A DNA stretch of 64,000 bases, taken from assembly GCA_013822125.1 (NCBI GenBank), contig PNJY01000003.1, positions 1-64,000 on the forward strand, written 5' to 3'. How positions within the stretch are numbered: position 1 is the first letter of the stretch; every line of letters starts with the position of its first letter. The notes beneath the pieces were generated by a model. The model was not told the DNA's origin, did not search any database, and saw nothing but the letters and a program-made list of their open reading frames with translations. The stretch comes from Erythrobacter sp. (lineage in GTDB: Bacteria > Pseudomonadota > Alphaproteobacteria > Sphingomonadales > Sphingomonadaceae). Positions 3,216 to 42,174 of the stretch are shown one piece after another. Made by a program: the position numbers and the translations under genes.

Positions 3216-5600
3216 ATGCCTGATTTCCTCCTCGAACTGCGCTGCGAGGAAATCCCCGCCCGGATGCAGGCCGGTGCCCGCGTCGAGCTGGAACGGTTGT
3301 TCCTCCGCGAGATGGAGGCGGCGGGCGTTGCCGTGGGCGATCTGACTGTGTGGTCCACGCCGCGGCGGCTGGCGCTCATCGCGCGCGGACTGCCTGACGC
3401 CACACAAGCGGTGAGCGAGGAAGCCAAGGGGCCGCCCGAGGGCGCACCCGACGCCGCGATTGAGGGCTTCTGCCGCAAGAATGGCGTCACCCGCGAACTG
3501 CTTAGCCTGCGTGACGTCAAGGGACGCAACACATGGTTTGCGGTGATCGAAAAACCGGGCAGGGCAACCCGCGCGCTTCTGGCTGAGGCCATTCCCGCCA
3601 TCATCCGCGACTTTTCCTGGCCCAAGAGCCAGCGTTGGGGCGCGGCATCGCTCAGCACCGAGAGCCTGCGCTGGGTGCGGCCCTTGTCCGGCATTGTCGC
3701 GATCCTTGGCGAAGAACTGGTAGATTGCGCGATTGACGGAATCGCGAGCGGCTATGCCACGCATGGCCACCGCTTTCATTGCCCAGGCGAGATCACCATT
3801 GGCGGCGCGGCGGACTATCAGGAAAAGCTGCGCGCCTGCCATGTCATCGTGGATCACGAGGAACGCGCCGCGCTGATCCGCGAGGGCGCGCACAAGGTCG
3901 CGGCCGATGCCGGGCTCACGCTGGTCGAGGACGAGGGGCTGGTGATCGAGAACGCCGGGCTCACCGAATGGCCGGTGCCGCTGCTCGGGCGCTTCGACGA
4001 GGCATTCCTCGACGTCCCGCCCGAAGTGATCCAGCTCACCGCGCGAGTGAACCAGAAGTATTTCGTGTGTACTTCTCCCCTCCCGCTTGCGGGAGGGGCC
4101 GGGGGTGGGCCTGACCCGGGGATGGATTCGCGTGGGGCGCCCACCCCTAACCCCTCCCGCAAGCGGGAGGGGGATTTGGCCAACGCCTTCGTCTGCACAG
4201 CCAACATTACCGCCGCCGATCCCGCCGTGGTGGTGGACGGCAACCGCAAGGTGCTGGCAGCGCGGCTTTCCGATGCGCGGTTCTTTTGGGAGCAGGACCT
4301 GAGGAAGTCGCTGGAGGAACATGCGAAGGGGCTCGAACGGATCACCTTCCACGAGAAGCTGGGCACCGTCGCCGACAAGGCGCAGCGGGTGGCCAAGCTT
4401 GCAAGGTGGCTGTGCGAGGAGGGGATTGTCAAATCCGGAGTCCCAGCGCAGGCTGGGACCTCTGGCGGGGAAGCGCCTGGCGGTACAAGGTCCCAGCCTG
4501 CGCTGGGACTCACGCAGGCCGAACTCGCCGACCTCGCCGAACAGGCCGCACTTCTATGCAAGGCTGACCTCGTCACCGAAATGGTCGGCGAATTCCCTGA
4601 ATTGCAAGGGCTGATGGGCGGATATTACGCCCGCGCCGAGGGCCTGCCGGACGAAGTCGCCGACGCGATCCGCGACCACTACAAGCCGGTCGGGCAGGGC
4701 GACGATGTCCCCACAGCGCCGGTGACCGTGGCGGTGTCGCTGGCGGATAAGCTGGATACTTTGGTTGGATTTTTCGTTATCAAGGAACGACCTACGGGTT
4801 CAAAAGACCCGTTTGCGCTTCGACGTGCAGCTATCGGGATCATTGAGCTCATCCTGCGCAACAAGCTGCGCGTTGAATTGGACTACGCGACCGCCCGTGC
4901 TGGCAACCTTATTTCGCGCTTTAACGAAAAACGCATTGGAGCGGATGCGAATTGCGAGTGGGTCAGCGAACATCTGTCGGAAGAACTGTTTCGCGCCGTT
5001 CCTAACTTCCTCGCCGACCGCCTCAAGGTCCAGCAGCGCGAGGCAGGCGTCCGCCACGATCTGATCGATGCAGTGTTCGCGCTTGGTGGGGAGGACGATC
5101 TCGTCCGCTTGCTTGCCCGCGTGAAGGCGCTGCAAGGCTTCATCACCACCGAGGACGGCGCAAATCTGCTCGCCGGATACAAGCGCGCGGCCAATATCCT
5201 CAAGAAGGAGGACTGGCACGGGGTCGAGGGTGAAATCAGCCGTACCGGCGAGGAAGACCCGCTGGCCGGGGTTGACGATCCCGACCTGGCCCCGGTGATC
5301 GCGGCCAAGATGTCCGAGCGCCACGCCAGGGAACTCTCCCACACACCCGAGCCCGCCGAAGCCGCGCTGATCGACGCTCTCGATGCGGCCGAGCCGCGCG
5401 CCATTGCCGCTATCGAGGCGGAAGACTTCGCCGCCGCGATGTCGGCACTTGCGAGCCTTCGCGCGCCGATCGACCACTTCTTCGATGAAGTTACGGTAAA
5501 TGCGCCCCAAGAAAGCGTGCGCGCATCGCGGCTCGATCTGCTTGCGCGGTTCCGTGCTGCAGTGCACAAAGTAGCGGATTTCTCGCAGATAGAGGGTTGA
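3216..5600 (+). CDS. glyS: Glycyl-tRNA synthetase beta subunit with two in-frame palindromic insertions
   Basis: MPDFLLELRCEEIPARMQ; full GlyS architecture; interrupted by TSPLPLAGGAGGGPDPGMDSRGAPTPNPSRKREG and SGVPAQAGTSGGEAPGGTRSQPALG. Confidence 0.95.
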   Translation: MPDFLLELRCEEIPARMQAGARVELERLFLREMEAAGVAVGDLTVWSTPRRLALIARGLPDATQAVSEEAKGPPEGAPDAAIEGFCRKNGVTRELLSLRDVKGRNTWFAVIEKPGRATRALLAEAIPAIIRDFSWPKSQRWGAASLSTESLRWVRPLSGIVAILGEELVDCAIDGIASGYATHGHRFHCPGEITIGGAADYQEKLRACHVIVDHEERAALIREGAHKVAADAGLTLVEDEGLVIENAGLTEWPVPLLGRFDEAFLDVPPEVIQLTARVNQKYFVCTSPLPLAGGAGGGPDPGMDSRGAPTPNPSRKREGDLANAFVCTANITAADPAVVVDGNRKVLAARLSDARFFWEQDLRKSLEEHAKGLERITFHEKLGTVADKAQRVAKLARWLCEEGIVKSGVPAQAGTSGGEAPGGTRSQPALGLTQAELADLAEQAALLCKADLVTEMVGEFPELQGLMGGYYARAEGLPDEVADAIRDHYKPVGQGDDVPTAPVTVAVSLADKLDTLVGFFVIKERPTGSKDPFALRRAAIGIIELILRNKLRVELDYATARAGNLISRFNEKRIGADANCEWVSEHLSEELFRAVPNFLADRLKVQQREAGVRHDLIDAVFALGGEDDLVRLLARVKALQGFITTEDGANLLAGYKRAANILKKEDWHGVEGEISRTGEEDPLAGVDDPDLAPVIAAKMSERHARELSHTPEPAEAALIDALDAAEPRAIAAIEAEDFAAAMSALASLRAPIDHFFDEVTVNAPQESVRASRLDLLARFRAAVHKVADFSQIEG
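4073..4175. repeat. Palindromic repeat, family G (about 35-bp arms), inside glyS
   Basis: tctcccctcccgcttgcgggaggggccgggggtgggc pairs with gcgcccacccctaacccctcccgcaagcgggagggggat. Confidence 0.92.
4438..4511. repeat. Palindromic repeat, family P (perfect 24-bp arms), inside glyS
   Basis: gagtcccagcgcaggctgggacct / aggtcccagcctgcgctgggactc are exact reverse complements. Confidence 0.95.
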
Positions 5601-8278
5601 ACGTGCAGACGGTCTTTGTTTTTGGCGGCTCCGACCCGCACGCGGCTACGCATACGAATGCGCGCCAGCGCGACAAGACCGTTACCGGAGGCAAGGGGGC
5701 AAACCTTGCTGAAATGGCCAGCATCGGGCTGCCGGTGCCGCCCGGCTTCACCATTACGACCGAAGAATGCGTGCGTTATCTGAAAGATGGCGCGGATTTT
5801 TCAGACCATCTGCGCGCGCAGGTGGCCGAAGCGCTCACGAATATCGAGCGCGCGGTGGGCAAGAAGTTTGGCGATGCGGCAGACCCGCTGCTGGTTTCGG
5901 TGCGGTCGGGAGCGCGGGTTTCCATGCCAGGGATGATGGACACGGTGCTCAACCTCGGCCTCAACGACGAGACGGTGCAGGGGCTTGCCGCCGCATCGGG
6001 ACACCCCCGTTTCGCCTGGGACAGTTATCGCCGCTTCATCCAGATGTATTCGGACGTGGTGCTGGGCATCGATCACGGTCTGTTCGAAGAAGCGCTGGAA
6101 ATCATCAAGGAAGACAACGGGTTTTATGCCGATACAGAGATGAATTGTGAGGATTGGCAGACCTTGGTCAGCCAATACAAGGCGATCGTCGAAGACGAGC
6201 TTGGCCACCCGTTCCCGCAGGATGTGAACGAGCAGCTGTGGGGCGCGATCCGCGCGGTGTTCGACAGCTGGGATTCGGACCGCGCCAAGGTCTATCGCCG
6301 GCTGAACGACATTCCCGGCGATTGGGGCACCGCGGTCAACGTCCAGGCGATGGTGTTCGGCAATATGGGCGATACCAGCGCCACGGGCGTCGCCTTCACG
6401 CGCGATCCCGCTACTGGAGAAAAGACATATTACGGCGAATTCCTGATCAATGCGCAGGGTGAGGATGTGGTGGCGGGCATCCGCACCCCGCAATATCTTA
6501 CTCGAGCCGCGCGCGAGGCGGCAGGCGCAAAGCCGCAGAGCATGGAAGAGGCGATGCCCGAGGTATTTGCCGAGCTGGCGCATGTTTTCGACCTGCTCGA
6601 GCGGCATTATCGCGACATGCAGGACATCGAGTTTACCGTGCAGCAGGGCAAGCTGTGGATGCTCCAGACACGCAGCGGCAAGCGCACAGCCAAGGCGGCG
6701 CTCAAGATGGCGGTGGACATGGTCGGCGAGGGGCTGATCGACGAGCGGACCGCGATCCTGCGCGTCGATCCAATGGCGCTTGATCAGCTGCTGCACCCAA
6801 CGCTCGATCCCGAGGCGGTCCGCGATGTGATGGCCAGCGGGCTGCCTGCTTCTCCGGGCGCTGCGTCGGGCAAGATCGTGCTCGACGCCGATACTGCTGA
6901 ACAATGGGCCGGGCGCGGCGAGAAGGTCATCCTGGTGCGGGTCGAAACCAGCCCGGAAGATATCCACGGCATGCATGCGGCGCAGGGCATATTGACTGCA
7001 CGTGGCGGCATGACGTCGCATGCGGCGGTGGTCGCGCGCGGAATGGGACGCCCCTGCGTCTCGGGCGCATCGGCGCTTTCGATCGACCTGAAGGCGCGCA
7101 CATTGCGGATAGGCACGCGTGACCTCAAGGAAGGTGATATTCTGACCATCGACGGCAGCAACGGCCAGGTCATGGCGGGTGAGGTTCCCACGATCGAACC
7201 CGAACTGGCAGGCGATTTCGGCACGCTGATGGAATGGGCCGACCGCCACCGGCGGATGAAGGTGCGCACCAATGCCGAAACGCCCGAGGATTGCCGCATG
7301 GCGCGTCAATTCGGGGCCGAGGGCATCGGGCTGTGCCGCACCGAACACATGTTCTTCGATGCCCAGCGGATCAGCGCGGTGCGCCAGATGATCCTTGCCG
7401 AGAACGAGCAGGGTCGCCGCGCGGCGCTTGAAAAGCTGCTGCCCGAACAGCGCAAGGACTTTCACGAGATATTCGAGGTGATGGCAGGGCTGCCGTGCAC
7501 GATCCGCCTGCTCGACCCGCCGCTCCACGAATTCTTGCCACATGGCGATGCCGAATTCGAGGAACTGGCCGAGGCAACCGGCTATGGCGTCGATCACCTC
7601 AGGCGCCGCGCCGAAGAACTGCACGAGTTCAATCCCATGCTGGGCCATCGCGGCTGCCGGCTGGGGATCACCTATCCCGAGATATACGAGATGCAGGCAC
7701 GCGCGATCTTCGAAGCGGCCTGCGAGGTGGCGAAGGCTTCGGGCAAGGCACCGGTGCCCGAGATCATGATCCCGCTGGTCGCCACGCGGCGCGAATTGCA
7801 ACTGCTCAAGGCACTGATCGACCGGGTGGCGGCGCAAGTGTTCGCGGAAACCGGTTGCACGGTCGAATACCTTGTCGGGACCATGATCGAATTGCCGCGC
7901 GCCGCATTGATGGCGGGCGAGATCGCCGAAGAGGGCGCATTCTTCTCCTTTGGCACCAACGATCTAACCCAGACCACGCTGGGTGTTTCGCGCGATGATT
8001 CGGCGCGGTTCCTCAGCGCATATGTCGAAAAAGGTATTTTCGCGCGTGATCCCTTCGTCAGCCTCGATATCGAAGGTGTGGGGCAATTGGTCGAACTGGC
8101 CGCCGAGCGGGGCAGGGCGACCCGGCCTGATATCAAGCTGGGCATTTGCGGCGAGCATGGCGGCGATCCTGCCAGCATTGCGTTCTGCGAGGCGGTCGGG
8201 CTCGATTACGTCAGCGCGTCACCCTATCGCGTGCCGATTGCCCGGCTTGCGGCGGCGCAGGCGGCCTTGCGGGCTTAG
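5597..8278 (+). CDS. ppdK: Pyruvate, phosphate dikinase
   Basis: VFVFGG...GGKGANLAEM, phosphohistidine motif GGMTSHAAVVARGMGRPCVSG, C-terminal PEP-binding motifs. Confidence 0.97.
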   Translation: MNVQTVFVFGGSDPHAATHTNARQRDKTVTGGKGANLAEMASIGLPVPPGFTITTEECVRYLKDGADFSDHLRAQVAEALTNIERAVGKKFGDAADPLLVSVRSGARVSMPGMMDTVLNLGLNDETVQGLAAASGHPRFAWDSYRRFIQMYSDVVLGIDHGLFEEALEIIKEDNGFYADTEMNCEDWQTLVSQYKAIVEDELGHPFPQDVNEQLWGAIRAVFDSWDSDRAKVYRRLNDIPGDWGTAVNVQAMVFGNMGDTSATGVAFTRDPATGEKTYYGEFLINAQGEDVVAGIRTPQYLTRAAREAAGAKPQSMEEAMPEVFAELAHVFDLLERHYRDMQDIEFTVQQGKLWMLQTRSGKRTAKAALKMAVDMVGEGLIDERTAILRVDPMALDQLLHPTLDPEAVRDVMASGLPASPGAASGKIVLDADTAEQWAGRGEKVILVRVETSPEDIHGMHAAQGILTARGGMTSHAAVVARGMGRPCVSGASALSIDLKARTLRIGTRDLKEGDILTIDGSNGQVMAGEVPTIEPELAGDFGTLMEWADRHRRMKVRTNAETPEDCRMARQFGAEGIGLCRTEHMFFDAQRISAVRQMILAENEQGRRAALEKLLPEQRKDFHEIFEVMAGLPCTIRLLDPPLHEFLPHGDAEFEELAEATGYGVDHLRRRAEELHEFNPMLGHRGCRLGITYPEIYEMQARAIFEAACEVAKASGKAPVPEIMIPLVATRRELQLLKALIDRVAAQVFAETGCTVEYLVGTMIELPRAALMAGEIAEEGAFFSFGTNDLTQTTLGVSRDDSARFLSAYVEKGIFARDPFVSLDIEGVGQLVELAAERGRATRPDIKLGICGEHGGDPASIAFCEAVGLDYVSASPYRVPIARLAAAQAALRA

Positions 8279-31468: not shown

Positions 31469-32434
31469 ATGAGCCTGCGCGTAGCCGTCCAGATGGACCC
31501 TATCGAAACCGTCAACATCGCGGGGGATTCGTCCTTCGCGCTGATCGAAGCCGCACAGAAACGCGGGTACACGGTGTTCGAATATCACGTCGGCAGCCTC
31601 ACACTCGACGCTGACGACCGGCTGTTCGCGCAATGCTTTCCTGTCACCGTCAGGCGCGTCGAAGGGGATCACTTCGCCAAGGGCGCACCGCACAGACTCG
31701 ATCTGGGGCGCGACATCGACATCGTGCTGATGCGTCAGGATCCGCCGTTCGACATGGGCTATATCACCGCCACCCATCTGCTGGAGCGGATCGGGCACGA
31801 AACCCTGGTGGTCAACGATCCGGCCAGCGTGCGCAATTCACCCGAAAAGGTGATGGTGCTCGATTTCCGCCGGTTCATGCCGCCCACGCTGGTCACACGC
31901 TCGATTGATGAGGTGCGGCGCTTCATGGCCGAACATGGCGCAATCGTGGTCAAGCCGATCCATGGCAATGGCGGCAAGGCGATCTTCCGCGTTCCCGAAA
32001 GCGGCGAGAACCTCTCGGCGCTGTTCGAGGTGTTCAACCAGATGTGGCCCGAACCGCACATGGTCCAGCCCTTCCTTCCCGAAGTGGCCGAGGGTGACAA
32101 GCGCATCGTGCTGATCGATGGCGTGGTCGCGGGTGCGATCAACCGGATTCCGGGCGAGGGCGAGTTCCGTTCGAACCTTGCAGCGGGGGGTAGTGCCCAG
32201 CCAACCACCCTGACCGCGCGCGAGCAGGAAATCTGTGATGCACTTGGCCCGGTTCTCAAGGAACGCGGACTGGTGTTCGTCGGGATCGATGTGATCGGCG
32301 GCAAGTATCTGACCGAGATCAACGTAACCTCGCCCACCGGGATCATGGCGATCGACCGCTTCAACGGCACCGATACGCCGGGGATGATCTGGGACGCGAT
32401 CGAGGCGCGTTTTGCGGTTCTGTCCGCGAATTAG
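31469..32434 (+). CDS. gshB: Glutathione synthetase
   Basis: VQMDPIETVNIAGDSSFALIEAAQKRGY, VKPIHGNGGKAIFRV, EINVTSPTGIMAIDRF. Confidence 0.95.
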   Translation: MSLRVAVQMDPIETVNIAGDSSFALIEAAQKRGYTVFEYHVGSLTLDADDRLFAQCFPVTVRRVEGDHFAKGAPHRLDLGRDIDIVLMRQDPPFDMGYITATHLLERIGHETLVVNDPASVRNSPEKVMVLDFRRFMPPTLVTRSIDEVRRFMAEHGAIVVKPIHGNGGKAIFRVPESGENLSALFEVFNQMWPEPHMVQPFLPEVAEGDKRIVLIDGVVAGAINRIPGEGEFRSNLAAGGSAQPTTLTAREQEICDALGPVLKERGLVFVGIDVIGGKYLTEINVTSPTGIMAIDRFNGTDTPGMIWDAIEARFAVLSAN

Positions 32435-33330
32435 CGCTTTCCGGCGCGCGGATGCGCGGAGCGGTAATTCTCCAGCATCGTCGCGGCATCGACCTTGGTA
32501 TAGATCTGCGTCGAACCAAGGCTGGCATGGCCGAGCAGTTCCTGCAAGCTGCGCAGATCGGCGCCTGCACCCAGCAAATGCGTGGCGAAGCTGTGCCGCA
32601 GCGCATGCGGCGTTGCGCTATCGGGCAATCCGAGCGCGCGGCGCGCCTGGGCCATCACCTTCTGGACCATGCCCTGGTTCAAAGCCCCGCCCTTGGTGCC
32701 GCGAAACAGCGGACCGTCGGGTACCAGCGGCCATGGGCATAGGGCGGTGTAATGTGCCACCGCTTCGCGGCAGATGGGCAGCACGGGGACGACTCGCTGC
32801 TTGCCGCCCTTGCCGGTGATCCTGATGATATCGCCCAAAGGTGCGTCCTTGCCCTTGAGCGAGAGCGCCTCGGATATCCGCATGCCCGAGCCATAGAGCA
32901 GCAGCAGCACCGCACGGTCGCGCGCGCCGGTCCATTCCTCGCTGCCATTGCCCGCGACCAGATCGGCGACATTGGTGGCGTCGTCGGGGGTGATCGGGCG
33001 CGGAAGGCCCTTCTTGATGCGTGGGCCGCGCAGGCGAGGGGGGGAAGGGTCCGGCACCCCGGCTTGCTCGCGTGCGAAGCCGAGGAAGTTCTTGAGCGCC
33101 GAAAGTTCGCGCGCGGCGCTGGCGTTGCCGATCCCCCCGGCGCGACGGCCGGCCATGTATCGGCGCAGGTCCGGTCCTTCAAGGCGTGCCAGATCGTCCC
33201 AGCTCGAAAACGCGCGTTCCTTCAGAAACCGCCCGGCGCAGGCGAGGTACGCGCGCACGGTATGCGGGCTGCTCCGCCGCGAATGGGTTAGATAGCTGCG
33301 CCAGCCTTCGAGAAAGTCGGCGTCGTTCAT
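32431..33330 (-). CDS. xerC: Tyrosine recombinase XerC
   Basis: ARDRAVLLLLYGSGMRISEALSLKG, HALRHSFATHLLGAGADLRSLQELLGHASLGSTQIYT. Confidence 0.92.
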   Translation of the reverse strand: MNDADFLEGWRSYLTHSRRSSPHTVRAYLACAGRFLKERAFSSWDDLARLEGPDLRRYMAGRRAGGIGNASAARELSALKNFLGFAREQAGVPDPSPPRLRGPRIKKGLPRPITPDDATNVADLVAGNGSEEWTGARDRAVLLLLYGSGMRISEALSLKGKDAPLGDIIRITGKGGKQRVVPVLPICREAVAHYTALCPWPLVPDGPLFRGTKGGALNQGMVQKVMAQARRALGLPDSATPHALRHSFATHLLGAGADLRSLQELLGHASLGSTQIYTKVDAATMLENYRSAHPRAGKR

Positions 33331-34478
33331 GCTGCCACCAGATCGGCATGAACGATTTCGCCAAGCAGCGCATCGAGCAGCGGCATCCCGGCAGGCGTGA
33401 CGCCGATCCGCGATCCGTGTTGCCACATCAGGGCCAGGTCGCGCAGCAACGCAAGCCGCCCGAAGTCGATCATCGCACCAGCGGCCAGGCCAAAGCGCTG
33501 GCCCAGCATCTCGAGGTCGATCCCCTCGACCAGCCGCAGCCCCATCATGATTGCTTCGCTGGCCTGTTCGCTTGCAGAAAGAGGGCGTGCCACATTGATG
33601 CCGTCACCGTACGTTTCTACACACTTAAGCCAGTTCTCGGGCTTCTTGTGTCGCTCCGTTGCACTGTTGTGTCGCCGTCCATGTGCGCCTGGACCGATCC
33701 CGCAATAGTCCTGGTACCGCCAATAGGCGAGATTGTGGCGGCTCTGCTCGCCAAGGCGGGCGTAATTGCTGATTTCGTAAGCGGGGATACCGGCGTCGGC
33801 GGTCATAGTCTGCGTCAGCGCGTAGAGGTCCGCCGCAGGATCATCGCCCAGCGGCGCGAAATGGCCGAGCCGCACATCGGTTTCAAAGCGCGTGCTCGGC
33901 TCGATCGTAAGCTGGTAGAGAGAGATATGGCCGGTGCCCAGCGCCAGCGCCCGGCTCAGTTCGCGCGCCCAATTTTCGGCTGTCTGACCGGGGCGAGCAT
34001 AGATCAGATCGATGCTGACGCGGCTGAAATTTGCCTGGGCGATATCCAGCGCATGGAGAGCTTCGGTGCTGGTGTGCAATCTTCCCAAAAACTGTAAAAC
34101 ATCATCATTTAATGATTGTATTCCCAATGAAATACGATTCACTCCAGTCATCGCAAGCGCGGCAAAATTGCCCACTTCGACCGACGACGGATTTGCCTCC
34201 AGCGTGATCTCGATTTCCGGTGCAAATCCCCACAGGCGCTCGGCCTCGGCCAGCAGTGCGCCGACCAGTACGGGTGGCATCAGCGAAGGTGTGCCGCCAC
34301 CGAAAAAGATCGATTCGAGCGCTTCGCCCCCGGCGATTTCAGCCTCGCGCCGCATGTCCGCGATCAGCGCCGCCTGCCAGCGCGCGACATCGACATCGGC
34401 GCGCACATGGCTGTTGAAGTCGCAATACGGGCATTTCTTCAGGCAGAAGGGCCAGTGGATATAGAGAGCGCGTGCCAT
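33327..34478 (-). CDS. hemW: Radical SAM HemW (heme chaperone / coproporphyrinogen III oxidase-like)
   Basis: LYIHWPFCLKKCPYCDFNSHV, SIFFGGGTPSLM, GVNRISLGIQSLNDDVLQFLGR. Confidence 0.95.
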   Translation of the reverse strand: MARALYIHWPFCLKKCPYCDFNSHVRADVDVARWQAALIADMRREAEIAGGEALESIFFGGGTPSLMPPVLVGALLAEAERLWGFAPEIEITLEANPSSVEVGNFAALAMTGVNRISLGIQSLNDDVLQFLGRLHTSTEALHALDIAQANFSRVSIDLIYARPGQTAENWARELSRALALGTGHISLYQLTIEPSTRFETDVRLGHFAPLGDDPAADLYALTQTMTADAGIPAYEISNYARLGEQSRHNLAYWRYQDYCGIGPGAHGRRHNSATERHKKPENWLKCVETYGDGINVARPLSASEQASEAIMMGLRLVEGIDLEMLGQRFGLAAGAMIDFGRLALLRDLALMWQHGSRIGVTPAGMPLLDALLGEIVHADLVAA

Positions 34479-37552: not shown

Positions 37553-37564
37553 CTGGAAGTTTTG

Positions 37565-38158
37565 ATGACCGATAACGACAAGTCGCGGACCCCCGATGAG
37601 GCGGTTGCCGCTGAATTGAAGGGCGTTCCCGAAGAGTTTCTCGACAAGTCCGCTGCCGAAATGGCGGAGGATGATACGAGCGCGCTTGACCGGGCGCTGG
37701 AACGTCTGCGAGACGATCTCGAAGCTGCGAAGCAGGAAATGCTCTACGCCAAGGCAGAGACGCAGAACGTGCGCCGCCGCATGGAAAAGGACGTGATCGA
37801 CGCGCGCAACTATGCCGCAACCGGCTTTGCCCGCGATGTCCTGAGCATTGGCGACAATCTCGCCCGCGCGATGCAGGCTGTGCCGGACGAACTGCGCGAA
37901 GATGAAAAGCTGAAAGGCCTGCTCGCTGGCATCGAGGCGACCCAGCGCGAACTCGAGAAGATATTCACCCAACATGGTATTACACGGATCGCCTCGGTCG
38001 GGCTGCCGCTCGATCCCAACCAACACCAGGCAATGATGGAGGTGCCCAGCGACGCGCACGAACCGGGCACCATCGTGCAGGAAATGCAGTCCGGCTACAT
38101 GATCAAGGACCGGTTGCTGCGCCCCGCAATGGTCGGCGTGGCGAAGAAGCCGGAATAG
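37565..38158 (+). CDS. grpE: Nucleotide exchange factor GrpE
   Basis: NVRRRMEKDVIDARNYAATGFARDVLSIGDNLARAM, GTIVQEMQSGYMIKDRLLRPAMVGVAKKPE. Confidence 0.96.
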   Translation: MTDNDKSRTPDEAVAAELKGVPEEFLDKSAAEMAEDDTSALDRALERLRDDLEAAKQEMLYAKAETQNVRRRMEKDVIDARNYAATGFARDVLSIGDNLARAMQAVPDELREDEKLKGLLAGIEATQRELEKIFTQHGITRIASVGLPLDPNQHQAMMEVPSDAHEPGTIVQEMQSGYMIKDRLLRPAMVGVAKKPE

Positions 38159-38162
38159 TCCG
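38114..38162 (+). repeat. 49-bp direct repeat copy 1 (3' end of grpE)
   Basis: ttgctgcgccccgcaatggtcggcgtggcgaagaagccggaatagtccg; identical to 39101-39149. Confidence 0.97.
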
Positions 38163-38173
38163 GAAGGATTGTA

Positions 38174-39145
38174 GTGTCTGAAATTTCAAGATTATTGGTT
38201 GTCCTGACATTATTCATTGGATTATCCTGGCTTCTCTATAAGTTGGAGGGCAAGAACAGTCGCCGTGGGGCAAAAGATCGTATTGATTTGGAATATAGAC
38301 CATACACTACAAAATATGACTTAGAACTACGAGGACGGGATTTAAGCGCCTTGCGCACTGCGGACTCAAACAGCACCGAATATACCGCGAAGATCTCGGT
38401 CAAGGACGTTGAGAAGCGCAAGGAAATTGCTGCAACGAGCTATGCAACTGCCATCGAAAACCTTGGTAAGCTGAAATTCCCGACGTCTATATTTGAGGGA
38501 ACTGCGATCGCTATTTTGCTGGACCTTTCAGGTTCAATGGCAAATCGATTGCCTGTCCTTTCCGGGGAAGTTGCAGCCATCACCGACCATCTTGAAGCAC
38601 TTGGCGCACGAGTCAGTGTGCTAGGTTTTACAACGCATGGATGGCGTGGAGGTGAGGCAAGACGAGATTGGGTCAGCGCAGGCCAGCCTGCTTATCCGGG
38701 CAGACTTTGTGCTCTCAAACACATTTGCTTCAAGGATTTCGATCAATCGAGGGAGCCGGACGATTGGGACAGCATGCTCGATGGCAAAATCTTGCGCGAG
38801 AATGTCGATGGCGAAGCAATTCAATGGGCCAATGGCTTGCTTGGACGGCGTGGGGAGGCTCATCGGGTGCTGCTTGTTGTTTCTGATGGGGCACCGGTCG
38901 ATGATTCGACGATTATGGCGAATGGCAAGAATTACCTCTATCGACACCTAAAACAGGTTATCAGTGAACTGCAGGCTGACGATCAATGTCACCTCGTTGC
39001 CGTGGGCATAGAACACCAAGTTAATTCCATTTATTCAAAGTCGATGGCGATGGAGGACCTCTTTGGCTTTGCGGAGACGGTGTCGTCCTATCTTGCCGAA
39101 TTGCTGCGCCCCGCAATGGTCGGCGTGGCGAAGAAGCCGGAATAG
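38174..39145 (+). CDS. N-terminally TM-anchored, CobT-like VWA domain protein
   Basis: GTG start with GAAGGA SD; LLVVLTLFIGLSWLLYKL anchor; DLSGSMANR MIDAS; GFTTHGWRGGEARRDWVSAGQPAYPGRLCALKHICFK and VSDGAPVDDSTIMANGKNYLYRHLKQVISE resemble the C-terminal VWA domain of cobaltochelatase CobT; ends with GrpE-derived LLRPAMVGVAKKPE. Confidence 0.85.
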   Translation: MSEISRLLVVLTLFIGLSWLLYKLEGKNSRRGAKDRIDLEYRPYTTKYDLELRGRDLSALRTADSNSTEYTAKISVKDVEKRKEIAATSYATAIENLGKLKFPTSIFEGTAIAILLDLSGSMANRLPVLSGEVAAITDHLEALGARVSVLGFTTHGWRGGEARRDWVSAGQPAYPGRLCALKHICFKDFDQSREPDDWDSMLDGKILRENVDGEAIQWANGLLGRRGEAHRVLLVVSDGAPVDDSTIMANGKNYLYRHLKQVISELQADDQCHLVAVGIEHQVNSIYSKSMAMEDLFGFAETVSSYLAELLRPAMVGVAKKPE

Positions 39146-39149
39146 TCCG
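39101..39149 (+). repeat. 49-bp direct repeat copy 2 (duplicated grpE 3' end, forms the 3' end of the VWA ORF)
   Basis: Identical to 38114-38162, offset 987 bp. Confidence 0.97.
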
Positions 39150-39155
39150 CCCGCG

Positions 39156-40382
39156 ATGCTGAGCGCCAATCTGCAGGGCGAGCGCGCGACTTTTGTCACT
39201 CATCTCGAATGCTCGATGACGGGGGAGCGCTATCCGGCCGACCGGCTCCACGGTCTTTCGGCGGCGGGCAAGCCTTTACTGGTGCGTTATGATCTGAGCG
39301 CTGCGGGCCGGGCGGTTTCGCGCGATGGCATGGCGTCTCGCCCCACAGATCTGTGGCGCTGGCGCGAACTGCTGCCCGTTCGCCATACTTCGAGCGTGGT
39401 CAGCCTGGGCGAGATCGAAACCCCGCTGATCCCGATTCCGCGCAGCGGCGGGCCGGGGGTGATCGTCAAGGACGAAGGCCGCCTGCCAACCGGCAGCTTC
39501 AAGGCGCGCGGGCTGGTAATGGCGGTGGCGATGGCGAAGGAACTGGGCGTGACCCGCATCGCCATGCCCACCAACGGCAACGCGGGCGCGGCGCTGGCGG
39601 CCTATGCCACCCGCGCCGGGATCGAGACCGTGGTGCTCTGCCCTGATGACACTCCAGAGGTAAACGTTCGCGAGATCGCGGCGCAGGGTGCGCGGGTCTG
39701 GCGCGTCAACGGGCTGATCGACGATTGCGGCGCGATCGTGGGGAAGGGCGCTGCTGAGGGGCTGTGGTTCGATTTCTCGACGCTCAAGGAACCCTATCGC
39801 ATCGAGGGCAAGAAGACGATGGGGCTGGAACTGGCCGCGCAGCTGGGATGGCGGCTTCCCAAGGCGATCTTCTATCCCACCGGTGGCGGCACGGGCCTGA
39901 TCGGGATGTGGAAGGCCTTCGACGAACTCGAGCAACTGGGCTGGATCGGGCCGGAGCGGCCGAAGATGTTCGCGGTGCAGGCAAGCGGCTGCGCTCCGAT
40001 CGTCAAGGCTTTCGAGGCAGGCGAGGAGCATGCCGAGCGGTGGGAGAATGCGCATACCATCGCCGCCGGTATCCGGGTGCCGCGCGCCGTGGGCGATTTC
40101 CTGATTCTGCGGGCGGTGCGCGAAAGCGGCGGCAGAGCGCTCGCCGTCGATGATGAGGCGATCGAGCAGGCCACCGCCGATTGCGCCGCGCAAGATGGAT
40201 TGCTGCTGTGCCCCGAAGGCGGGGCGACGCTGGCGGCATGGCGCAAGGCGGTGGCCGAAGGGCTGGTTGGTGCCGATGACGAGGTGGTGTTATTCAACTG
40301 CGCGACGGGACTGAAGTACCCGCTGGCGGATCGCTCGCACGTTCTCGACAGGAATGACCTCCCTCCGCTTGAAACCCTATAG
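39156..40382 (+). CDS. Threonine synthase family PLP enzyme
   Basis: FVTHLECSMTGERYPADRLHGLS, KDEGRLPTGSFKARGL, PTNGNAGAALAAYATRAGI, FYPTGGGTGLIGMWKAFDEL. Confidence 0.9.
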   Translation: MLSANLQGERATFVTHLECSMTGERYPADRLHGLSAAGKPLLVRYDLSAAGRAVSRDGMASRPTDLWRWRELLPVRHTSSVVSLGEIETPLIPIPRSGGPGVIVKDEGRLPTGSFKARGLVMAVAMAKELGVTRIAMPTNGNAGAALAAYATRAGIETVVLCPDDTPEVNVREIAAQGARVWRVNGLIDDCGAIVGKGAAEGLWFDFSTLKEPYRIEGKKTMGLELAAQLGWRLPKAIFYPTGGGTGLIGMWKAFDELEQLGWIGPERPKMFAVQASGCAPIVKAFEAGEEHAERWENAHTIAAGIRVPRAVGDFLILRAVRESGGRALAVDDEAIEQATADCAAQDGLLLCPEGGATLAAWRKAVAEGLVGADDEVVLFNCATGLKYPLADRSHVLDRNDLPPLETL

Positions 40383-40489
40383 GCCGTTCCTGCGGCAAGT
40401 CGTTGATACCCCGGCATCGGCGCTTCATCGAAGTCTTGTTAATTTCCGGCATCGCCGTCCTAAGCTGTGCGCGGGGACGGAGGGAACCA

Positions 40490-40981
40490 ATGACAACAAG
40501 GATAATCGGCCTGACGGCAGCGGGTTTTGTGCTTGCGGCAACCACCGCATTGGGAACAAGGGCACAGGAGGTCCGGTCGGACGAGGCTCCGCCCACCGTG
40601 GTCCAGATGGAGGCACAACAAGTCGTCGCGGCGCGGCGCGCGGCCTATTTCCTGTCAACCCAGGCGGTGGGCCAGATCAAGGCGGCGACCGAGGAGGGCG
40701 GCGATCTAAAGCGCGCCGTTGCGGGTGCCCGGATGCTGGCCAACTGGGCGAAGGTGTTGCCCACGATGTTCCCCGACGGCACCAAGACCGAAGGTTCGCG
40801 CGCGCTCGATACGGTTTGGACCGACCGGGCAGGCTTTGAAACGCGCGCAGCAGCCTATCAGCAGGCGGCGCTGGAAGTGGCAAGGTTTGCTGAGGAAGGT
40901 AATCGCGAGGAAACCGCCAAGGCATTCATGGCCATGGCCGCCACTTGCCATGCCTGCCACGAGCAGTACCGGAAGGAATGA
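40490..40981 (+). CDS. Cytochrome c (class II, c'/c556-like)
   Basis: Signal peptide plus C-terminal CHACHEQYRKE heme motif. Confidence 0.88.
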   Translation: MTTRIIGLTAAGFVLAATTALGTRAQEVRSDEAPPTVVQMEAQQVVAARRAAYFLSTQAVGQIKAATEEGGDLKRAVAGARMLANWAKVLPTMFPDGTKTEGSRALDTVWTDRAGFETRAAAYQQAALEVARFAEEGNREETAKAFMAMAATCHACHEQYRKE

Positions 40982-40996
40982 TCCTGCCGCCGCACG

Positions 40997-41491
40997 CTAT
41001 GCGAGCCTGGCCGCCCCCGGAAAATTGACAAGAACGTCATAGGCCGACGGATCGCTTGCCTGCGCAAGCCGAATTCCGTTGCGCAGCAGGAAGGCGTGGC
41101 GGACGATCTCGGCCTGCTGCTCGATGCCATAGCGCACCAGCGGCCATCCCGGGCGCAAGCCATAATCGTATCGCGCCCACGGCATACGACCGATAATCAG
41201 GAACCAGCGCCCGCGCGTCTGAGCCTGCCAGACATGCGTCATCTCATGAATGAAGAAGCCTTGCCGATGGATATTCGCCTGCGAGAAATCATCGCAGTAA
41301 CTTTCGCTGAACGGATGGAAATGCAGGTGCCCCATGGGAGCCATGGCGATATGGCGTGGCTGGAAGGGAAACCACTTGCGCCGCCGGATAGTGACGCGGG
41401 AATATTCGACCGCGTCGCCGAAAATTCCGCGAGCAAGTTCAATCTCACCCAATGTGAGCGATCGTTCACCCCCAACCGGGCAATTCGGCAC
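40997..41491 (-). CDS. Putative HExxH-containing protein of unknown function (Vgr-related annotation type)
   Basis: FFIHEMTHVWQAQTRGRWFLIIGRMPWARYDYG. Confidence 0.65.
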   Translation of the reverse strand: MPNCPVGGERSLTLGEIELARGIFGDAVEYSRVTIRRRKWFPFQPRHIAMAPMGHLHFHPFSESYCDDFSQANIHRQGFFIHEMTHVWQAQTRGRWFLIIGRMPWARYDYGLRPGWPLVRYGIEQQAEIVRHAFLLRNGIRLAQASDPSAYDVLVNFPGAARLA

Positions 41492-41511
41492 TACGTCAGC
41501 CGGCTGGCGCG

Positions 41512-41997
41512 TCAGCGTTCATCCCCGGCGGCCCTGATCTCGACCGGAAAACTGTGTTTGTCCCCGCCTGATACGGTGAGTGTCACTTCGGTTGAACCGC
41601 CAGGCTTGAGATCGGGCGAAACCACAAATGCCATCACATGCCTTTTGCCCGGTTCGAACGAGAGCTTGTCGCCCTTCTTGATGCCGATGGGCAACGCTTC
41701 CATCATCTGCACCTTGAAATCGTACTCGCCATAATCGTGCAGCATGGCGCTTTTCGCGCCAGCCACATCGGCGCGGCGGATCGTCAGCCCGCGGTCACCT
41801 TCATAGGAGAGATCGAAATAGACGGCAGCGGGGTTCCCTGCGACTGGTGCCAGCACCATCCTGCCATTGTTCACGCTCAGACCGGGCACGCCTTCCACCT
41901 CAGTCTGGGCGGCTTCATCGGCTCCGCCGCCGCAGGATTGCAACGCAAGGCTTGATACCAGCAGCATCGCTGCCCAGACCGGCTTGGCATTCATCAT
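41512..41997 (-). CDS. PCu(A)C copper chaperone family lipoprotein
   Basis: Lipobox SLALQSCGGG; domain with MLHDYGEYDFKVQMMEALPIGIKKGDKLSFEPGKRHVMAFV. Confidence 0.88.
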   Translation of the reverse strand: MMNAKPVWAAMLLVSSLALQSCGGGADEAAQTEVEGVPGLSVNNGRMVLAPVAGNPAAVYFDLSYEGDRGLTIRRADVAGAKSAMLHDYGEYDFKVQMMEALPIGIKKGDKLSFEPGKRHVMAFVVSPDLKPGGSTEVTLTVSGGDKHSFPVEIRAAGDER

Positions 41998-42045
41998 CAA
42001 CTCTCCCCCCGATGCGAAACAGTGAAAATCTACCGTGCACGGTCT

Positions 42046-42073
42046 CTTGTGCCAAGCGAATCCACTCCTATAT
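42046..42073 (+). promoter_or_regulatory. RpoH (sigma-32)-type promoter of dnaK
   Basis: CTTG at 42046, 17-bp spacer, CCTATAT at 42067; matches the alphaproteobacterial consensus CTTG-N17/18-CYTATNT. Confidence 0.75.
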
Positions 42074-42174
42074 CGCCCGTGTAACACAGTAACTCTCTAG
42101 AGCCGACGACCGGTTTTGCCCCTGTGGAGATCCGAAAGTCTGGCGTCCAATTATAGAAGACGGATGGAAGAACA

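Follow-up and report, generated by a model that had tools for sequence, protein, structure and literature searches.

A copied grpE 3' end behind a VWA-domain gene in Erythrobacter sp. looks like a one-off recombination scar

We analysed a 64,000-nucleotide stretch of an Erythrobacter sp. genome (assembly GCA_013822125.1, contig PNJY01000003.1, positions 1 to 64,000, forward strand), referred to here as the window, in which a VWA-domain gene (vwa) lies between grpE and thrC and is bounded by a direct repeat. The features of the locus are as follows.

37562..38158, forward strand: grpE, intact (Pfam GrpE, E 1.6e-48; sequence)
38114..38162, forward strand: repeat copy 1, the last 14 codons of grpE with stop and TCCG (repeat comparison)
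38163..38168, forward strand: GAAGGA, Shine-Dalgarno-like, of the VWA gene (seen directly)
38174..39145, forward strand: vwa, GTG start, with a predicted N-terminal membrane helix and a CobT_C-type VWA domain (ORF, Pfam, alignment, AlphaFold)
38163..39100, forward strand: unique part of the 987-bp unit, 49.3% G+C, single copy in the genome (genome search; composition)
39101..39149, forward strand: repeat copy 2, apparently a copied grpE tail that stands where vwa had its native 3' end, separated by 6 nt from the thrC start (repeat comparison and alignment)
39156..40382, forward strand: thrC, the downstream neighbour, which adjoins grpE directly in the relative G089 (ORF; locus comparison)

The two repeat copies (38114-38162 and 39101-39149) were identical at 49 of 49 bp with a spacing of 987, as the first-pass annotation had reported, and a chance origin was ruled out because this is the sole exact direct repeat of at least 22 bp in the 64-kb window. 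Copy 1 is the 3' end of grpE followed by TAG TCCG and leaves GrpE intact, and copy 2 supplies the last 14 codons of the VWA ORF (LLRPAMVGVAKKPE) together with its stop; the sequence agreed with that annotation on these assignments, as on the ribosome-binding motif and GTG start that vwa has of its own. Copy 2 is followed by CCCGCG and then by the thrC ATG at 39156, which places the thrC start 10 nt after the vwa stop. The unique 938 bp were indeed AT-richer than their surroundings, with a G+C content of 49.3% compared with 62.5% for the window, the lowest among its 938-bp stretches. The VWA ORF fills the 987-bp unit, within which neither a recombinase-like ORF (its absence had also been noted in the first pass) nor a transposase-like ORF was found. 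This genome contained one grpE and no other copy of the unit. An ORF for a XerC/D-like tyrosine recombinase was observed outside the unit, about 5 kb away (32431-33426, reverse strand), and looks like a housekeeping gene.

The vwa product matched Pfam CobT_C (PF11775) with 146.5 bits against a gathering cut-off of 21, and cobaltochelatase CobT itself (TIGR01651, an NCBIfam equivalog) was excluded (168.5 bits against a cut-off of 759). The MIDAS residues were intact (D117, S119, S121, T153/T154 and D238), the alignment showed that metal-site residues are kept across the vwa family, and a small conserved module, YTTxFD, was present besides the predicted N-terminal helix and the VWA domain. The best PDB fold match of the AlphaFold model (mean pLDDT 86, pTM 0.84) was the VWA domain of NorD in complex with the AAA+ protein NorQ; by sequence, the PDB match was CobT. 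Basic residues after the helix, read by the positive-inside rule, suggest that the domain is cytoplasmic and tethered to the membrane; by analogy, the protein may act as an adaptor for an ATPase of the MoxR type. The analysis identified no AAA+ partner for it, and defence-system models gave no match. A single-sequence search returned no close relatives in named genomes, and the best identity to any relative was 40%. Plasmid matches were rejected as close kin: they are CobT-like proteins, and the best one, as annotated, adjoins cobS and urease genes. Additionally, relatives of vwa without the membrane helix were observed at L165:4986-5843, L161 near 5001-5732, L159:913-1773 and L160:874-1791; they belong to viral contigs (with tail- or fibre-like genes around the one in L165) and to two further genomes of the family. 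The literature searched contained no earlier description of a grpE-linked VWA gene in Erythrobacter.

We searched 114 genomes of the genus (Erythrobacter in the broad sense) with a family profile built from the N-terminal part of vwa. The profile detected vwa in 12 of the 114 genomes, and a shortened copy in G005, where grpE and vwa both lie at contig ends, brought the count to 13; a fourteenth genome, G113, retained a remnant only. In every readable case in the genus vwa was the first gene after grpE, and the same gene order was found in G330, a genome of another genus. Even sampling of the order and of the family (399 genomes each) yielded no further vwa, save for weak phage-like matches. 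Across 100 loci, gene content varied in the stretch that separates grpE from the conserved duf-lipo-dnaK block (38158-42087 in the window), which held an enoyl-CoA hydratase gene, thrC, a cytochrome-like gene or vwa; despite this variability, vwa, where present, always adjoined grpE. The relatives thus show that the gene is no newcomer at this site.

The divergence of vwa pointed the same way. Distances between vwa proteins tracked those between grpE sequences (Mantel r 0.65, p 1e-4, with the window included or left out), and the supported vwa groups corresponded to grpE clades. Copies were also found to decay in place: vwa was broken by a perfect 68-bp tandem duplication in G071 (L124:1364-1499), by a frameshift in G097 and by an internal deletion in G005, and the G113 remnant was N-terminal. 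Since divergence tracks grpE and four copies are broken, vwa looks like the fast-evolving half of an old grpE-vwa pair, passed on mostly together with grpE and repeatedly lost. Its presence changes cleanly, because a filled and an empty neighbour (L123 and L085) differed from the grpE stop to the vwa stop. On the grpE tree, which is weakly supported, parsimony needed 12 changes to explain presence and absence, and Dollo, with gains forbidden, 34 losses; so many losses count against pure vertical descent, and gene replacement via flanking homology may add to the pattern.

These results bear on the proposal of the first-pass annotation that the unit is a non-autonomous cassette or satellite, inserted site-specifically at the grpE 3' end, with the 49-bp repeats as attL/attR-like sites. 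With a recombinase supplied in trans, such an element would account for a perfect direct repeat of att-like length, an AT-rich cargo, a patchy distribution and a site that is always the same. We nevertheless regard it as very unlikely. The same family lies next to grpE in 13 of the 114 genomes and in G330, its divergence follows grpE and its copies decay where they stand; the ten other carriers that were scanned lacked the second grpE 3' end that paired att sites would leave; and the unit encodes no recombinase and is present once in its genome. A check that the annotation itself had suggested, for vwa at the 3' end of any other gene, found no such copy in the 114 genomes of the genus.

We compared the C-terminus of the window's VWA protein with those of its relatives. 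In most relatives the protein stops 1-4 residues past the E-L that is conserved in the last helix; a few proteins extend further, by 8 to about 18 residues, and no relative in the alignment carries the tail PAMVGVAKKPE. The 49-bp repeat begins exactly at the conserved L of that helix, and model confidence fell from 96 at residues 301-310 to 64 at residues 311-320 and 50 at the last three. Because native ends cluster at the repeat start and model confidence falls there, the VWA domain is predicted to be complete, with only its end replaced. In the carriers examined the native C-terminus thus differs, is usually shorter and lacks the repeat, which comes close to the pattern that the annotation had set against its own reading, a different, longer C-terminus and no repeat in all relatives. 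The downstream DNA scanned, about 4 kb in most cases and shorter at contig ends, held a second grpE tail neither in ten other carriers of the genus nor in the empty genomes. Remnants of a grpE tail at other vwa 3' ends scored no higher than controls, with a slight and unconvincing excess only in L095, L123 and L149. Among the genomes scanned, the copied grpE tail is unique to this genome and is a local event.

An empty site was found in G089, a relative of another species, in which the grpE TGA, 6 nt and the thrC ATG follow one another. This junction aligns to the window with the 987 bp missing, so that copy 2 together with thrC looks like the original empty grpE-thrC junction. The empty site anticipated by the first-pass annotation therefore exists, though in a relative of another species only; the comparison set held no same-species strain with an empty site or with the native vwa 3' end. 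The closest relative found, G081 (L195, G081:C118), matched the window's genome at 91% in dnaK and had thrC at the same place, and a mosaic test via the hrcA and dnaK neighbours revealed no clear donor.

We consider it probable that the vwa 3' end was joined illegitimately, once, to the grpE 3' end of an empty grpE-thrC allele. A chromosome carrying grpE-vwa would have met a same-species chromosome or fragment that lacked vwa and had grpE directly before thrC; the source is taken to be of the same species because the two repeat copies are identical, and in this lineage its empty junction would read grpE-TAGTCCGCCCGCG-thrC. Homology in grpE would have allowed entry, either through a single crossover with a fragment that had recircularised or through homology-facilitated illegitimate recombination. 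A precedent comes from E. coli, where fragments homologous at one end were mostly integrated in circular form through one crossover, which duplicated part of the homologous locus (PMC3240628). The joint would lie no more than about one codon from the last conserved residue of vwa, perhaps at a short microhomology of TTG/TTGC or more; the conserved leucine of the relatives suggests TTG/TTGC there. The product would be grpE, vwa, a duplicated grpE tail and thrC in this order, with both reading frames kept and a 14-residue grpE-derived tail gained by the VWA protein. For the two copies to be identical throughout, the donor must have been very close or the copies must have been homogenised later.

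The main rival to this illegitimate joining is a templated tail swap within one chromosome, in which replication or repair of an ancestral grpE-vwa-thrC arrangement would have jumped from the vwa 3' end to the 3' end of grpE, 987 bp upstream, and copied 49 bp there before returning to its first template just ahead of thrC. It needs neither a donor to make the copies identical nor an empty allele; local duplication is known in the vwa family (the 68-bp tandem in G071), and in all carriers vwa stands before other downstream genes. It requires, however, two switches, the second of which would have to restore a grpE-thrC junction like that of G089, and we hold it to be possible and clearly the less likely course. 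The nearest relative does not separate the two, because the G081 contig stops 235 bp inside thrC.

Gain of the whole vwa from a distant lineage, by single crossover into an empty grpE-thrC site, would fit the low G+C content, the lack of a close relative, a weak grouping of vwa with the copy of another genus and the empty site of G089. However, the G+C content of vwa is also below that of grpE in other carriers, where the repeats are absent, and identity at 49 of 49 positions, third codon positions included, would be unexpected from a foreign grpE; such a distant donor is highly improbable. An assembly artefact, in which reads from vwa-positive and vwa-negative strains were joined into a chimera, appears less probable still. 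The draft comprises 311 contigs with a contamination estimate of 4.8%, and at small k the assembly graph would look no different if an empty chromosome were accompanied by a vwa circle. Against this, the joint between vwa and the grpE tail needs real reads, is in frame and falls exactly at the domain end, and the genome has one grpE only.

The window's vwa, whose best relative shares no more than 40% identity, could still be a recent import from an unsampled lineage. It is also conceivable, if rather unlikely, that vwa at grpE is a single-gene module moving between Erythrobacter lineages through recombination anchored in the conserved 3' end of grpE, with the grpE tail as a carried homology arm, and that the window captures a fresh integration with the second arm still present. 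Under our preferred reading, the illegitimate joining to an empty allele, the 987-bp unit looks like a one-off recombination scar and not a new kind of mobile element. What had appeared to be such an element thereby becomes a readable scar, whose 49-bp footprint shows how a dispensable gene next to grpE can be acquired or given a new tail with no harm to grpE itself, and which exposes a fast-evolving, often-lost membrane VWA gene tied to a heat-shock locus, with unanchored relatives in phage contigs.

The VWA protein resembles the CobT_C- and NorD-type VWA partners of MoxR-type AAA+ ATPases in its CobT_C domain and NorD-like fold; compared with CobT, it lacks the N-terminal region, has a predicted membrane helix instead and is encoded behind hrcA-grpE. 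Islands and satellites placed at gene 3' ends by tyrosine recombinases likewise have a direct repeat that holds the 3' end of the target gene, whereas here there is no integrase, the unit is 987 bp long, the repeat occurs in this genome alone and the cargo gene is a long-standing resident. The closest parallel in layout is with single-crossover insertion-duplication and homology-facilitated illegitimate recombination (PMC3240628), in which the insert is also flanked by a direct duplication of the homologous locus and one side is homologous, the other illegitimate. In the E. coli study the duplications measured 109-950 bp, whereas the event proposed here is natural and inferred, with a duplication of only 49 bp.
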